A DNA stretch of 37,653 nucleotides, taken from NCBI GenBank assembly GCA_944325635.1, contig CALVBD010000010.1:1-37653 (forward strand), written 5' to 3'. This document shows, in pieces, positions 306-32,514 of this stretch; within the stretch, counting starts at the first letter, position 1, and each line of letters starts with the position of its first letter. The stretch is from Candidatus Gastranaerophilales bacterium. Its GTDB lineage: Bacteria > Cyanobacteriota > Vampirovibrionia > Gastranaerophilales > Gastranaerophilaceae. The position numbers were made by a program, and so were the translations under genes. A model generated the notes under the pieces. That model was not told the DNA's origin. It saw nothing but the letters and a program-made list of their open reading frames with translations, and did not search any database.

Positions 306-1211
306 ATGAATTTAGCACATATTTTAAGCGACCCGCCGATTTTGGTTGTAATATTTGCATTTATATCAGCAATGACATATTGTACTGTGATGTACAGTAA
401 AGTAAAAAAGAATCTTAATATACTTTATCAATTTACAAGCAATTTCAAAAAAAGCGACTTAAACTACAGGTTTAAAGAGATTGATGAATGGATGTCGCTA
501 AATCCGTACGTATCTGCGATATGGCTGGAATTTAAAAATACACTTGTATTCTCCGAGTCTGTAGCATTAAAAGGGCAGAATAATACTCTGACATATAAAG
601 AAGTTTCTTCTACCATTCAAAATATTCAAACAACAGTTGATCCTGCATACTTTTTCAATGAAGAATCTCTTGTAACGGGAAAATTTAATAACAAACTTAT
701 GGTATCATGGCCGACAATCCTTACAGGTTTAGGCCCGTTGTTTACATTCTTGAACATCGCAATTGCGTTCGGTAAAATTGACTTTTCAAGCCAGGAAGCA
801 ACAATCGCATCCGTTGCAAACCTGATGAGTTCCATGCAGATTGCAGCGTTGGTATCAGTATTCGCACTTTGTGCTTCCCTGATTTTTATCGTATATGAAA
901 AATTTGCCTATGCTATTTTATGCCACGCACCTTTTGCAAGAGTTATTGATGTTATCGGAAAATTATTTGACAATATTTCTTCCGAAAAATTCTTATTGGA
1001 ACTTCTGAAAGAAACAAAAATTCAAAACAATGCACTTCAACACTTGATTACAGAACTGCCTAATCACTTTAAAGTTGCATTGAATTCAGGTATTGCAGGT
1101 AACCTTGTTCCATATCTTGAAAACCTTATTTTCGGTATGAACCTAATGAACAAACAGATGAAAGAAATGGCTAAAGCCACTAAATCCGATGCTGTAGACG
1201 ACTTATTCTAA
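306..1211 (+). CDS. MotA/TolQ/ExbB-family proton channel subunit, ZorA-like
   Basis: 301 residues. One membrane segment lies at about 10-30. A cytoplasmic stretch follows, then two further hydrophobic segments at about 133-155 (containing TGLGPLFTFLNIAIAF) and 177-200. The C-terminal 100 residues are helical. The GLGxLFTF signature and the TM2-TM3 spacing fit the MotA/TolQ/ExbB family, where such subunits form a pentamer around a MotB-type dimer and couple ion flow to work. The short N-terminal topology and its pairing with an OmpA-domain partner resemble ZorA of the Zorya anti-phage system more than flagellar MotA. No flagellar, Tol or TonB genes are nearby. An SD (GGAGAA) supports the start. 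The family is well supported; the ZorA label is inference. Confidence 0.7.
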   Translation: MNLAHILSDPPILVVIFAFISAMTYCTVMYSKVKKNLNILYQFTSNFKKSDLNYRFKEIDEWMSLNPYVSAIWLEFKNTLVFSESVALKGQNNTLTYKEVSSTIQNIQTTVDPAYFFNEESLVTGKFNNKLMVSWPTILTGLGPLFTFLNIAIAFGKIDFSSQEATIASVANLMSSMQIAALVSVFALCASLIFIVYEKFAYAILCHAPFARVIDVIGKLFDNISSEKFLLELLKETKIQNNALQHLITELPNHFKVALNSGIAGNLVPYLENLIFGMNLMNKQMKEMAKATKSDAVDDLF

Positions 1212-3310: not shown

Positions 3311-3340
3311 TTGGAATTATTATTAATTCTATGATATAAT
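3311..3340 (+). promoter_or_regulatory. Promoter of peptide locus 1
   Basis: TTGGAA (3311-3316), 18 bp, TATAAT (3335-3340), giving a start near 3347 and a leader of about 69 nt. The sequence around the -10 box (TATAATTTTTGC) is repeated at the second locus (25792 onward). Confidence 0.65.
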
Positions 3341-3415: not shown

Positions 3416-3490
3416 ATGAAAAGACTTATAATAAAAGATGCCCTATCGGTAGTAGGACATCTTTTACAAATATTATCGATTTTCATTTAG
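3416..3490 (+). CDS. 24-residue hydrophobic peptide, candidate type I toxin (locus 1)
   Basis: A 24-codon ORF beginning MKRLIIKDAL and ending LQILSIFI. A strong purine-rich SD (AGGGGGTGAG, 3403-3412) lies just upstream. The C-terminal two-thirds is hydrophobic enough to insert in a membrane. The peptide at 25870 is exactly the same length and shares M1, I5, K7, V12 and L17-Q18-I19. The leader carries a C-rich segment (CTCCCTCC, 3361-3368) that could pair with the SD. It also carries AAGACT (3352-3357), complementary to GGTCTT (3491-3496) just after the stop. A convergent antisense promoter lies downstream. The arrangement matches type I toxin genes. Toxicity is inference; a leader peptide is an alternative. 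Confidence 0.6.
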   Translation: MKRLIIKDALSVVGHLLQILSIFI

Positions 3491-3531
3491 GGTCTTGTAA
3501 AGGTCGCTTTGTACAGCGACCACCCTTTATA
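3430..3531 (-). ncRNA. Candidate antisense antitoxin RNA (locus 1)
   Basis: A promoter on the minus strand, TTGAAA (3564-3559), 16 bp, TATAAT (3542-3537), would start an RNA near 3530. This RNA would run across the 3' hairpin, the stop codon and the back half of the peptide ORF. An inverted repeat in the ORF (arms 3433-3443 and 3455-3465) followed on the minus strand by TTTTATTAT can end it. The predicted length is about 100 nt. Because it covers GGTCTT (3491-3496), it would compete with the leader/3'-UTR pairing of the mRNA. Confidence 0.5.
3502..3521. terminator. 3' hairpin of peptide locus 1
   Basis: GGTCGCT, a 6-nt loop and AGCGACC form a perfect 7-bp stem. It may be extended by AGGG (3489-3492) pairing with CCCT (3523-3526). 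A T/A-rich tract follows. It can act as terminator for the peptide mRNA and as a stable first hairpin of the antisense RNA. Confidence 0.55.
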
Positions 3532-3536
3532 TTATT

Positions 3537-3564
3537 ATTATAACGTATTTCGGAAAATTTTCAA
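3537..3564 (-). promoter_or_regulatory. Antisense promoter, locus 1
   Basis: TTGAAA, 16 bp, TATAAT on the minus strand. The same boxes, in the same place relative to the peptide gene and with the same flank (ATTATAACGTA on the plus strand), occur at locus 2. Confidence 0.6.
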
Positions 3565-6850: not shown

Positions 6851-7639
6851 ATGTCGTTTTTCAATAAGAACGCTTTTCGGATTAGAAATAGAGCGAACGG
6901 TTTTACATTAGCAGAAGTTTCTTCCACACTGTCCCACGGAAATTATAAATTCGCATTTACTCTGGCAGAGGTTTTAATAACACTTGGGATTATTGGTATA
7001 GTTGCTGCTATGACGCTGCCAACACTTATACAAAAACAAAACGATGCCGCGATTATTGCAAGTTTAAAGAAAAATTATTCCATACTTTCGCAAGCTCTGG
7101 TAAAATCACAACTTAAGCTTGGCTTTTTTGAAACATGGGATATTGATACCTCTGGCAGCAACCCTGAAGAAGGAGGCACACCTGCAAACATGAAAAATGT
7201 GTACAATGCAATAAAGCCGGAATTGAAAGTTTTAAAGGAATGCGAAGATAAAGCCGGCTGCTGGCATAAAGGTACAACAAAAACTCTCAGCGGAAAAGGT
7301 TCCGGTACTATAAGAGATTCAATCGGGATAGGCAGCGGCATCTTTATATTCAAACTTGCTGATGGAACGAATATAAGTATTGATGACTTTGCCCCAGCAA
7401 CACTCAATCAAATTGGTTCAAATTATAACAAAAGCACTTATGCCTTTTGGGTAGATGCAAATGGCGATAAAAGACCAAATACAATAGGGCGTGACATTTT
7501 CCTGTTTATCTTAACAGATAGAGGACTTGTCCCCGCTGGCATTGACCATTATACTAACTGTGATACCAAAAGTACAGCACTTTATAGCGGAGCAGCATGC
7601 ACAGCAAAGGTGCTCTCAGAGGGTAAAATTGATTACTAG
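6851..7639 (+). CDS. Type IV prepilin-like protein with duplicated cleavage motif
   Basis: 262 residues from ATG 6851, which has no SD. A class III signal is present: FTLAEVLITLGIIG at about 37-50, followed by a hydrophobic helix and a variable secreted domain with paired cysteines. Prepilin peptidase cleaves before the Phe and the helix packs into a pilus or pseudopilus. A second copy of the motif (GFTLAEVSS) lies 18 residues earlier, so the leader is unusually long and partly duplicated. The C-terminal domain has the AFWVDANGDKRPN and TIGRDIFLFIL blocks shared in style with the other prepilins here. Expression may depend on the upstream G tract. Confidence 0.75.
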   Translation: MSFFNKNAFRIRNRANGFTLAEVSSTLSHGNYKFAFTLAEVLITLGIIGIVAAMTLPTLIQKQNDAAIIASLKKNYSILSQALVKSQLKLGFFETWDIDTSGSNPEEGGTPANMKNVYNAIKPELKVLKECEDKAGCWHKGTTKTLSGKGSGTIRDSIGIGSGIFIFKLADGTNISIDDFAPATLNQIGSNYNKSTYAFWVDANGDKRPNTIGRDIFLFILTDRGLVPAGIDHYTNCDTKSTALYSGAACTAKVLSEGKIDY

Positions 7640-25767: not shown

Positions 25768-25797
25768 TCGGAAGTATTATTAATTTTATGGTATAAT
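25768..25797 (+). promoter_or_regulatory. Promoter of peptide locus 2
   Basis: TCGGAA, 18 bp, TATAAT (25792-25797) followed by TTTTGCAGGG, the same arrangement as locus 1. The start is near 25804, with a leader of about 66 nt. It begins 4 nt after the rnhC stop codon. Confidence 0.6.
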
Positions 25798-25869
25798 TTT
25801 TGCAGGGTAGTACCACAACCTCACCCACACACGTATTTAACTAGGAAGTCGGTGGAAGGAGGTGGTAAT

Positions 25870-25944
25870 ATGACCAATATAATAATGAAAACCGTTATAA
25901 CGGTAATTATAACGGTTTTACAAATTATTATCTATTGGCTATAG
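25870..25944 (+). CDS. 24-residue hydrophobic peptide, candidate type I toxin (locus 2)
   Basis: A 24-codon ORF starts MTNIIMKTVI and ends LQIIIYWL, almost entirely Ile/Val/Thr/Leu and surely membrane-seeking. GGAAGGAGGTGG lies 6 nt upstream as a very strong SD. The leader has ACCAC and CUC segments (25812-25822) that can pair with GAGGUGGU at the SD. It also has AGTACC (25809-25814), complementary to GGTACT (25945-25950) directly after the stop. The same design as 3416-3490 is present with a different sequence. A perfect 13-bp inverted repeat lies inside the coding region (25888-25900/25907-25919). Confidence 0.6.
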   Translation: MTNIIMKTVITVIITVLQIIIYWL

Positions 25945-25997
25945 GGTACTAAGCGAAGCCTCAATCAAAAGGTACTTGGTTGGGGCTTCCCCCTATA
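25880..25997 (-). ncRNA. Candidate antisense antitoxin RNA (locus 2)
   Basis: Minus-strand promoter TTGAAA (26031-26026), 17 bp, TATAAT (26008-26003) predicts a start near 25996. The RNA would begin with the 3' hairpin, cross the stop codon and the GGTACT element, and could end at the perfect 13-bp inverted repeat inside the ORF, whose last arm is followed by TTTTCATTATT. The predicted length is about 115 nt. Confidence 0.5.
25955..25989. terminator. 3' hairpin of peptide locus 2
   Basis: GAAGCCTCAATCA pairs with TGGTTGGGGCTTC along 13 positions if G-U pairs are allowed in the plus-strand RNA. TATAGGG (25940-25946) and CCCTATA (25991-25997) can close the outside. This mirrors the hairpin at 3502-3521. 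Confidence 0.55.
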
Positions 25998-26002
25998 TTT
26001 TT

Positions 26003-26031
26003 ATTATAACGTACCTTAAATACTTTTTCAA
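26003..26031 (-). promoter_or_regulatory. Antisense promoter, locus 2
   Basis: TTGAAA, 17 bp, TATAAT on the minus strand, with the -10 box in the same ATTATAACGTA context as locus 1. Confidence 0.62.
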
Positions 26032-26046
26032 GTATATAAAGACACG

Positions 26047-26757
26047 TTACTTTATCTTTTGGAAATAGTCGTTATCAATACTTGCAAAATACCCGCAGGT
26101 AGCACCGTTTTGAGAATCGGTGGAGGTTGGATTACAGTACTTACTCTTTGTAAAATCGTCAGTGTCCTCAATATATTGTGTTCTCCCTTTACAGGATGGT
26201 GAACCCAGCGGGCAGACCCTGTCCCCTTTATCTATAACAAATGCAAATGTATCATGCCCAATACGATTTGGTTTGTTGGAAGTTCCGTTTACGTCAAAAA
26301 ATATTATAGGATTTGATGTAGAACCCCCTGTTTCCACAATTACACTCATTCCGTTCTTCAGCTCCATGTAACCATCATTTAAAAGCCCCTCGTCAAATTT
26401 TGAACCTCCGGTAAATATATAATATTTCTTTGCAGCATAACTACCATTGCCATTTTTATTCAGGGCATGAATACCTGTAAATGCTTCCGCAAGCACTTCC
26501 GAAAATACACGATATTGACCATCCTTGCAGTAATCACTCGAGTTTGCGGTACAATAAGTGCTCTCGGTCATCATCAACTGCTGAGAGTGAAAATAACTTA
26601 CCGCATTATGGAGAAGATTAGCTGCAACTTTATACCTGGTTTCAAACTCCTTATACTTTGTTTTTTCAGTCAAAGATGGCAGTGTCATTGCAGCAACAAC
26701 TCCGATTATCCCCAGAGTTATCAAAACTTCAGCCAATGTAAATGCTTTCTGTCCCAT
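26047..26757 (-). CDS. Type IV prepilin-like protein
   Basis: 236 residues. A very short leader (MGQKA) precedes FTLAEVLITLGIIG, so prepilin peptidase would cut before Phe6. A hydrophobic helix and a 200-residue variable domain follow, with cysteines in pairs (YCTANSSDYC, CPLGSPSC, YCNPTSTDS). The block FFDVNGTSNKPNRIGHDTFAFVI is the same kind of segment found in the other three. An AGGAAGA stretch lies upstream of the ATG. The gene is alone on its strand. It is probably a minor pilin or pseudopilin. Confidence 0.8.
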   Translation of the reverse strand: MGQKAFTLAEVLITLGIIGVVAAMTLPSLTEKTKYKEFETRYKVAANLLHNAVSYFHSQQLMMTESTYCTANSSDYCKDGQYRVFSEVLAEAFTGIHALNKNGNGSYAAKKYYIFTGGSKFDEGLLNDGYMELKNGMSVIVETGGSTSNPIIFFDVNGTSNKPNRIGHDTFAFVIDKGDRVCPLGSPSCKGRTQYIEDTDDFTKSKYCNPTSTDSQNGATCGYFASIDNDYFQKIK

Positions 26758-29375: not shown

Positions 29376-29470
29376 TCACAATCTCCTAATTGTCATGTTT
29401 TTGTCGCCTATTGACAAATATATAAAGGAACAATATAATAATTTGTATGTTACATTTAGGGTACATAAAC

Positions 29471-30226
29471 ATGACAAAGAATAAATATTCAATCGGCGGT
29501 TTTACTCTCGCAGAAGTTTTAATAACACTAGGAATTATTGGGATTGTCGCTGCAATGACTCTGCCGTCCCTTGTTGGAAAATACAAAGAAAAACAGAGGG
29601 TAACCCAACTAAAAAAGGCCTACTCCATTCTAAATCAGGCATTTCTAATGGCAGTAAAAGATTATGGAACTCCCGACAACTGGGGACTTGTCCAAACAGT
29701 TACCGGAGAAGTTGATGAAGAAGGCGAGCAGATTCTTGACAACAGTGGTTCTGTCAAAGCAATGGGCATTTTGAAAAAATATATAAAGCAAAAATCATTT
29801 GCCGAAAATGAAATTATAGGTTATGTAAGATCGCTTGACGGTCGTGAAGCATGGTGGCCATGGAAAGCAGAATCCGATAAATATATATATATTGCGGATG
29901 GTACAGTCCTTGCTCAAGGCTGGATAAGCTCGACAGATTCATGTGCAAAAGGCCAGTGCGGCGACTTCTGGGTGGTTTTCCCTTCCAGAAATATGAAAAT
30001 TGGCGTTGATGTTTTTAATTTCAACTTTACCACCAAAGGTTTTGTACCGAAAGGAATGCAAAATGATACAGGATATCCTTTCCCCAAGAAATGTAGCATG
30101 ACAGATACTTCTGTCGCTGCGGATCATCAGGGACGCGGCTGTACAGCATGGGTAATTTTTAATGGAAACATGGACTATTTGCATTGCAACAATCTTTCAT
30201 GGGATGGTAATACCAAGTGTAAGTAA
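29471..30226 (+). CDS. Type IV prepilin-like protein
   Basis: 251 residues from ATG 29471. The frame from 29447 would give an atypical leader. The leader MTKNKYSIGG precedes FTLAEVLITLGIIG. A variable domain follows with paired cysteines and the C-terminal signature GCTAWVIFNGNMDYLHC, shared closely with the gene at 31756. Gene order here (speE, prepilin, rseP, prepilin) does not look like a pilus operon; each prepilin appears to be its own unit. Confidence 0.8.
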   Translation: MTKNKYSIGGFTLAEVLITLGIIGIVAAMTLPSLVGKYKEKQRVTQLKKAYSILNQAFLMAVKDYGTPDNWGLVQTVTGEVDEEGEQILDNSGSVKAMGILKKYIKQKSFAENEIIGYVRSLDGREAWWPWKAESDKYIYIADGTVLAQGWISSTDSCAKGQCGDFWVVFPSRNMKIGVDVFNFNFTTKGFVPKGMQNDTGYPFPKKCSMTDTSVAADHQGRGCTAWVIFNGNMDYLHCNNLSWDGNTKCK

Positions 30227-31676: not shown

Positions 31677-31755
31677 CCCTATATTGAACACGTTCCAAAA
31701 ATATGCTATAATAATAAATATTATTATCAACGTGAATGTCAAATATGGGGGAATG

Positions 31756-32514
31756 ATGATTAAAAGAGGTTTCACTTTGGCGGAAGTTCTTATAACACTT
31801 GGCGTTATAGGAATTGTTGCAGCAATGGTATTACCATCTGTTCTTGTACAAAACAGAGAAAGAGAGAATACCGCAAAATTAAAAAAAATATACAGCACAA
31901 TGACGCAGGCTTACACACGTGCGGTAGCAGAACGAGGAACTCCGGACTTTTGGGATTTAATGGGTAAAGATGACCCTACCGGTGCTGAAAATCTAAAAAA
32001 AATACTTTCCCCGTATTTTAACGTGAAACCTTCAGGCATAGAAGGCGAAGTATGGAGAAACGCTAACACAAGACAGCTTGATAATAGTGCAGGTCCGAAT
32101 ATCGGTGCAAGTGAGGGAAGCACATATTCTACTTTTGCTGTAGTCGACGGAATGTCGCTTGCTTTCAGAGTTGAGGATAAAGATTGTAAAGCCGTATTCG
32201 GCGATTCAAGAGCTCTTCAGAACGTCTGTGCCACATTTATTGTTGATGTAAACGGAAGCAAACATCCTAACCAGTTCGGCTTTGATATTTTTCAATTTTA
32301 TATAACAAAATACGGGCTCCAGCCTTACGGAAGTCAGTCTGATACGACATATCCGTTTGAAGACAGTTGTCAGCTTGGAAGCGACGGTTATGGCTGCGCA
32401 GCATGGGTAGTTTTTAGAGGAAATCTTGACTACCGCCACTGCTCGGATCTCGAGTGGAACGGAAAGTTCAAATGCCACGGATTAATGGATTCTAAATATA
32501 ACAGTGATTTATAA
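31756..32514 (+). CDS. Type IV prepilin-like protein
   Basis: 252 residues from ATG 31756, behind GGGGG (31747-31751); the adjacent ATG 31753 is possible. The leader MIKRG is followed by FTLAEVLITLGVIG. The variable domain carries CATFIVDVNGSKHPNQFG and the C-terminal block GCAAWVVFRGNLDYRHC, close to the gene at 29471. The two are probably paralogues made by duplication. Confidence 0.8.
   Translation: MIKRGFTLAEVLITLGVIGIVAAMVLPSVLVQNRERENTAKLKKIYSTMTQAYTRAVAERGTPDFWDLMGKDDPTGAENLKKILSPYFNVKPSGIEGEVWRNANTRQLDNSAGPNIGASEGSTYSTFAVVDGMSLAFRVEDKDCKAVFGDSRALQNVCATFIVDVNGSKHPNQFGFDIFQFYITKYGLQPYGSQSDTTYPFEDSCQLGSDGYGCAAWVVFRGNLDYRHCSDLEWNGKFKCHGLMDSKYNSDL

Follow-up and report, generated by a model that had tools for sequence, protein, structure and literature searches.

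A 37,653-nucleotide (nt) stretch of DNA from a Candidatus Gastranaerophilales bacterium (hereafter the window; contig 10 of a 2.0 Mb genome, GenBank assembly GCA_944325635.1) carries two small loci, locus 1 and locus 2, each of which is very probably a type I toxin-antitoxin module with the terminator of the antitoxin RNA placed inside the toxin open reading frame (ORF). On the plus strand of both loci, a -10 box is followed by roughly 65 nt of leader, then by a Shine-Dalgarno sequence, an ORF whose 24 codons specify a hydrophobic peptide, and finally a hairpin. On the minus strand of each, a promoter close to consensus is directed toward the ORF (Table 1). The support, at the level of sequence, is the hairpin itself, covariation between its arms, its strand bias, the promoter layout, 5'-3' complementarity within the mRNA, and retention of the hairpin in loci where the toxin is dead. 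The two constituents of a type I system can be recognized: a short hydrophobic-peptide ORF with a ribosome-binding site, and a predicted antisense RNA that is complementary to the toxin mRNA and has a promoter and a terminator of its own. The type I kind is itself well known; the loci are best filed as a new predicted family of that kind, distinguished by the embedded antitoxin terminator.

The proposed module would work as follows. The plus strand would yield an mRNA of about 200 nt (starting near 25803-25805 at locus 2), with its Shine-Dalgarno sequence held in a leader stem and its 5' end paired with the bases immediately past the stop codon. The encoded hydrophobic peptide of 21-32 amino acids (aa), the putative toxin, is probably membrane-active. 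A downstream promoter, nearer to consensus, whose -10 box falls within the mRNA terminator's T-rich tail, would drive a convergent antisense transcript some 110 nt long. This RNA would traverse that terminator and then the ORF's 3' half, to end at an intrinsic terminator encoded by toxin codons 6-17. The two RNAs would pair over their 3' ends, perhaps initiating loop to loop at the shared hairpin, and the duplex would probably be destroyed by RNase III.

Table 1. Features of the two loci, numbered from the first base of the window. R1 is a covariance model of the antisense half of the locus, built from 23 sequences.
Locus	Feature	Position	Strand	Basis
2	Sense -10 box, TATAAT	25792..25797	+	sequence; aligns with locus 1 and other copies
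2	5' element, UAGUACC	25808..25814	+	complementary to 25945-25951; also in predicted fold
2	Shine-Dalgarno sequence, AGGAGGT	25857..25863	+	predicted occlusion by 5' leader
2	Putative toxin ORF, MTNIIMKTVITVIITVLQIIIYWL	25870..25944	+	class A pN/pS below 1
2	Predicted antisense intrinsic terminator within ORF	25888..25919	-	arms 25888-25900 and 25907-25919; tail to about 25880
2	GGUACUA right after stop codon, pairs with 5' element	25945..25951	+	pairing test
2	Sense mRNA terminator hairpin, 14-bp arms	25955..25989	+	T-rich tail overlaps antisense -10 region
2	Antisense promoter, TTGAAA-17-TATAAT, 11/12 consensus	26003..26031	-	promoter scan
2	Predicted antisense RNA, about 110-117 nt, two hairpins	25880..25996	-	predicted ends; R1 match and fold
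1	Sense -10 box, TATAAT	3335..3340	+	sequence
1	Putative toxin ORF, MKRLIIKDALSVVGHLLQILSIFI	3416..3490	+	sequence
1	Predicted antisense intrinsic terminator within ORF	3432..3466	-	arms 3432-3445 and 3453-3466
1	Sense terminator hairpin, GGTCGCT-TTGTAC-AGCGACC	3502..3521	+	hairpin search
1	Antisense promoter, TTGAAA-16-TATAAT, 11/12 consensus	3537..3564	-	promoter scan
1	Predicted antisense RNA, about 110 nt	3422..3531	-	predicted ends; R1 match and fold

The original prediction held that an inverted repeat inside each ORF ends an antisense RNA, and both repeats are present. At locus 2 the repeat is, as had been described, a perfect 13 bp around a 6-nt loop (13 of 13 pairs Watson-Crick), and the arms can be extended to 22 bp at 82% pairing. 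The locus 1 repeat had been given as 10-11 bp (3433-3443/3455-3465), which falls slightly short of its extent: it spans 14 bp with one C-A and a 7-nt loop. The two repeats do lie at the same codons, with arms starting 18 nt (locus 2) and 16 nt (locus 1) into the ORF, no more than 2 nt apart, and the minus strand beyond the hairpin is T-rich as claimed, reading CATTATTATATT at locus 2 and TTATAAGTCTTT at locus 1. The family size and the full type I layout go beyond what had been proposed. A terminator scan recovers the locus 2 site as a minus-strand terminator, with 3 terminator-like sites in the 401-base region (0.3 expected); the same scan of the locus 1 region gave 0 sites (0.2 expected). 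Folding of the predicted antisense RNAs was stronger than that of shuffled sequences (z -6.1 for locus 2, -5.9 for locus 1; 0 of 200 shuffles in each case). As a chance test of the repeats, synonymous codons were redrawn 300 times from the family's own pool with the peptide held fixed. The observed repeat was equalled in 3 of 300 draws at locus 2 and in none at locus 1, and family-wide it was reached in at most 1% of draws for 52 of 86 unique ORFs (mean z 2.9).

The strand that the hairpin serves was assessed across the family, in which 110 loci provided 72 unique ORF hairpins (42 of peptide class A, 10 of class B, 20 of class C). Classes were set by a text rule, whose single revision raised the class A count from 38 unique hairpins to 42; rows in which the hairpin was poorly detected were retained (the bulged L050; L094, which lies at the end of a contig; L125, with a short ORF; L141; and several class C rows with long loops). 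The counts of wobble, tail and energy are raw and ignore shared ancestry. G-U wobble in class A occurred 41 times in the antisense form and 2 times in the sense form, or 13 against 2 when distinct states are counted, and class C gave 29 against 7. The downstream 3' hairpin, presumed to be the sense terminator, had the reciprocal pattern, with 54 sense against 3 antisense (10 against 2 as distinct states); the difference between class A and this hairpin has a Fisher p of 5e-22, inflated by shared ancestry. These 3' hairpin counts are restricted to motif-fitting loci (29 unique cores for wobble, 56 unique hairpins for energy), and an unrestricted search yielded 152 sense and 65 antisense wobbles across 64 hairpins. 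By fold energy, the antisense form was the stabler one for 63 of the 72 ORF hairpins, against 5 with a stabler sense form; among the 3' hairpins, the sense form was stabler in all 56. Counted over 8 bases from the start of each tail, T favored the antisense side in 65 of 72 hairpins and the sense side in 3, with 4 ties. Wobble, the side of the T tract, arm covariation and the toxin-dead loci described below support an ORF hairpin that acts on the antisense strand; wobble bias, tail side and toxin-dead loci likewise favor the proposal that it would form the end of the antisense RNA.

Pairing within the hairpin has been conserved through sequence change. In an alignment of 23 sequences, which mis-registers some class B and class C rows, the ORF helix shows both-sided changes at 12 of its 15 pairs. 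The two helices together have a covariation score of 0.315, compared with 0.164 when shuffled (0 of 500 as high), and every slid version of the two-helix structure scored 0.127 or less. Each of the four copies in the window's own genome has a hairpin sequence of its own at this position. The hairpin had also been expected to constrain the peptide-coding region, and the comparison of synonymous change proposed for that purpose bears this out: in 39 class A ORFs, synonymous divergence (pS) is 0.237 in the arm and loop codons (7-17), compared with 0.403 in codons 2-6 and 0.387 in codons 18-24. The corresponding ratios of non-synonymous to synonymous divergence (pN/pS) are 0.38, 0.64 and 0.64. A ratio below 1, together with the low pS in codons 7-17, indicates that the ORF is maintained as protein and that synonymous change is restrained at the hairpin. 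The family peptides are mostly within the length range given above, hydrophobic, and preceded by a Shine-Dalgarno sequence, with a hydropathy of +1.6 in the ORF frame versus -0.2 and -1.0 in the other two. A PHROGs search gave 2 weak matches, for one peptide only (best E 0.44), a plasmid search for the family gave zero matches, and no Rfam covariance model scored above gathering at locus 1 or locus 2 (the best, at locus 2 only, was tsr25, with 18.6 bits against a gathering score of 63).

Eight distinct loci in which the toxin is broken or lost retain the hairpin and the antisense promoter region, and R1 hits all eight at E 5.3e-14 or better. Three of these loci (L119, L142, and L127, which equals L049 in sequence) have no toxin start or leader, the segment abutting the end of another gene. 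The toxin ORF of L064 is ended by an early stop, and the toxin frame breaks in L095, L130 and L048 (equal to L124 in sequence). The start codon of L125 (equal to L043) reads CTG, from which initiation is possible. In the very diverged L060, with weak R1 matches, it is the 3' end of the ORF that by eye seems to hold a strong antisense terminator. The L125 locus (about 30-440) is flanked by two copies of a terminator-like stretch, AAAGACCGGCGATTTTGTGTGTCGTCGGTCTTT, and looks as if it had been inserted with duplication of that stretch.

A further property of the family is the closure of the toxin mRNA. At locus 2, the first bases of the mRNA, GGGUAGUACC, pair with GGUACUA just past the stop codon, and UAGUACC of this 5' end recurs within the antisense RNA. 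Across 53 distinct element pairs (the poor row L094 included), the score of each 5' element with its own partner was 7.41, versus 6.72 when permuted (standard deviation 0.11, highest 7.03; 0 of 200 as high), and compensated variants occur, for example GUUCC with GGAAC. Predicted folding closes the mRNAs of both window loci by this 5'-3' pairing, and the Shine-Dalgarno sequence is mostly paired in predicted folds (0.21 unpaired over 80 mRNAs).

Related loci are found well beyond the window. Two more diverged copies in the same genome (L009 and L010, on contig C2 near 109526-109797 and 208800-209080) encode different peptides and differ in arm sequence at the equivalent position. R1 matches locus 2, itself in the model, at 25876-26012 (E 6.8e-25), and locus 1, though absent from the model, at 3422-3546 (E 4.2e-6); L010, also outside the model, is matched at E 3.5e-7. 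Of 99 genomes compared with locus 2 at the DNA level, 17 showed similarity, its own included, with arrays of neighboring copies among the matches (G005 C18 and G004 C71). A pattern built on the region after the stop codon gave 94 hits overall; GTDB genomes accounted for 86 stretches, viral contigs for 5. Among the 80 matches listed in GTDB genomes, many are titled Gastranaerophilales or Melainabacteria and some Muribaculaceae or Oscillospiraceae. Six of the 94 hits (L066, L115, L126, L153, L154, L155) were excluded as chance before counting, 4 without an ORF by our rule (L119, L124, L127, L142) were inspected separately, and the curated ORF set omits 5 of 31 segments (L043, L048, L049, L060, L064). 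Within the order, R1 finds a match in 162 of 383 genomes, of which only G075 lies outside the window's taxonomic family; in a sample of the phylum it does so in 66 of 292, every one of them listed under that family. The window's genome is counted in both samples, which overlap.

The arrays at G005:C18:1745-2600 and G004:C71:12145-12708 are tandem and of mixed peptide classes, and both adjoin a gene end resembling, by eye, that of the gene before window locus 2. Dulem virus 31 (PP511318.1, 17893-18091; L186:4001-4199) carries a copy with the peptide MNNVTIKIAITVIIAILQIILHCL; this 35.8 kb sequence has baseplate and tail genes, a content at odds with its classification in the Microviridae. An 11.3 kb IMG/VR contig (L151), with ORFs that are tailed-phage-like by eye, carries a class C copy (R1 match 1059-1189, minus strand). 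Regions of weak BLAST match (L011-L017) had no such locus by eye. The 10 matches to the promoter pattern in the window's genome, except locus 2's own promoter, were judged by eye to precede pilin-like and other genes and were rejected. Those at L022, L023, L025, L026, L027 and L028 lead into type IV pilin-like genes with G runs (about 10-16 in most) shortly after the start codon, resembling phase-variable pseudopilin genes. In the window, pilin-like ORFs with FTLAEVLITLG lie at 6851-7639, 26047-26757, 29447-30226 and 31684-32514, four in 37 kb.

Could the repeat serve the sense RNA instead, as an attenuator or a translation-regulating hairpin of the small ORF? The palindrome does fold in the sense strand (class A mean -11.1 kcal/mol), and TTTT stands at the end of the right arm, but the near absence of sense wobble in class A, a T-poor sense tail (class A mean 1.76 of 6, versus 3.86 antisense) and the retained hairpin in toxin-dead copies all speak against such a role. 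We consider it very improbable and rejected it on strand bias and covariation. On the same two grounds we rejected, as more improbable still, a palindrome that matters as DNA, either as a protein-binding site or as a mobile repeat fortuitously within the ORF. Such an element would sit well with several copies per genome, tandem arrays and copies on phage contigs, but it is the pairing that is conserved between copies, not the arm sequence. Moreover, neither a cruciform nor protein binding would be expected to make mismatch type depend on the strand; the strong bias observed, reversed in the neighboring hairpin, therefore counts against it. Somewhat less remote, although still unlikely, is a convergent RNA pair as described here in which the peptide is a non-toxic small membrane protein under antisense control. 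Toxicity of the peptide is only predicted: searches of Pfam and NCBIfam with the peptides matched no family, so that no known family vouches for it. Tandem multicopy loci, patchy presence among genomes of the order, antisense-only remnants and copies on phage contigs are, on the other hand, typical of addiction modules.

The lack of a Pfam or NCBIfam match also weighs against our preferred reading, a type I module with an embedded antitoxin terminator, as do several other points. Class B ORF hairpins are weakly biased (wobble 17 antisense versus 11 sense), an ungapped search gave poor scores to some class C repeats, 34 of 86 ORFs fall short of the 1% level against synonymous draws, and the ORF hairpins are partly A+T-rich. 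The antisense RNA as drawn stops short of the start codon and thus could not directly block initiation. Truncation of the mRNA at its 3' end leaves the Shine-Dalgarno sequence paired (0.22 unpaired versus 0.21 at full length, from thermodynamic folding only), with the unpaired fraction lower in the full-length form for 46 of 80 mRNAs; we therefore do not claim a hok-like switch, and these predicted folds lend no support to hok- or AapA-like activation by 3' trimming. Transcription, termination sites, toxicity, silencing and mechanism are what we infer from the DNA.

A more ambitious reading, to which we give slightly less than an even chance as a whole, is that of a lineage-wide type I family of gut Gastranaerophilales with the stem of the antitoxin terminator written into the toxin coding sequence. 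About half of the codons of a 24-residue toxin would then answer to the folding of the antisense RNA, and near-palindromic peptides (KTVITVIITVLK and the like) would in part be a by-product of an RNA terminator. As part of this tentative reading, the antisense RNA of locus 2, because it carries UAGUACC of the mRNA 5' end, could replace that end in the closed mRNA. If true, a class of gut bacteria would gain a widespread family of RNA-controlled toxins, remnants that keep the antisense gene alone would be candidate anti-addiction genes, and the loci would offer a clean natural case of one DNA segment selected for protein on one strand and, on the other, for an RNA that folds. Which strand a terminator serves can be tested simply by the reciprocal G-U signature of neighboring hairpins. 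In the openly licensed PubMed Central (PMC) literature we found no description of a type I toxin-antitoxin system for Melainabacteria, and a search there for Gastranaerophilales toxin-antitoxin yielded only work judged, from the listing, to be unrelated.

The 3'-overlap layout of the window loci is shared with two known type I systems, txpA/RatA and bsrG/SR4. In txpA/RatA (Bacillus subtilis skin element), the loop of the RatA terminator is reported to be complementary to an mRNA stem-loop, and the duplex to be cleaved by RNase III (PMC3531473); this system is larger than the window loci, with a TxpA of 59 aa and a RatA of 222 nt (PMC7430163). In bsrG/SR4 (SPbeta prophage), a 3'-overlapping antisense antitoxin controls a small hydrophobic toxin of 38 aa, the Shine-Dalgarno sequence is sequestered, and first contact is through the antitoxin's terminator loop (PMC7430163, PMC6562991). 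In SPBc2 (L187), we located the antisense promoter at 627-598, which, with the reported SR4 length of 180 nt (PMC7430163), places the expected end of SR4 near 412. The bsrG ORF ends at 417 with its stop codon and the candidate SR4 terminator stem lies at 423-447. The likely SR4 stem is thus entirely downstream of the bsrG stop, with only the U tract antisense to the last lysine codons; that stretch has no folding advantage over shuffled sequences (z 0.17). A stem wholly inside the toxin ORF therefore sets the window loci apart from bsrG/SR4, the sole system, to the exclusion of txpA/RatA, against which this difference is drawn. BLASTP of BsrG against one window peptide gave no alignment, a weak test at 24 aa.

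Long-distance 5'-3' pairing in the toxin mRNA is likewise a feature of aapA/IsoA of Helicobacter pylori and of hok/Sok (PMC6733600). In aapA3, however, the far 3' sequence itself is reported to sequester the Shine-Dalgarno sequence, and trimming of the 3' end activates the mRNA (PMC6733600), of which predicted folding of the family's mRNAs bears no sign. A further comparison is msoT1/msoA1 of Microcystis aeruginosa, a candidate type I system that has been called the first in the phylum Cyanobacteria, in a report with 0 mentions of Gastranaerophilales or Vampirovibrio (PMC12390103, 2025). The Microcystis survey describes 6 of 10 candidate antitoxins as overlapping the coding sequence and 3' untranslated region (PMC12390103). 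By its description, MsoT1, the tested Microcystis toxin, is set apart from the window peptides, being predicted to have two membrane helices (PMC12390103).
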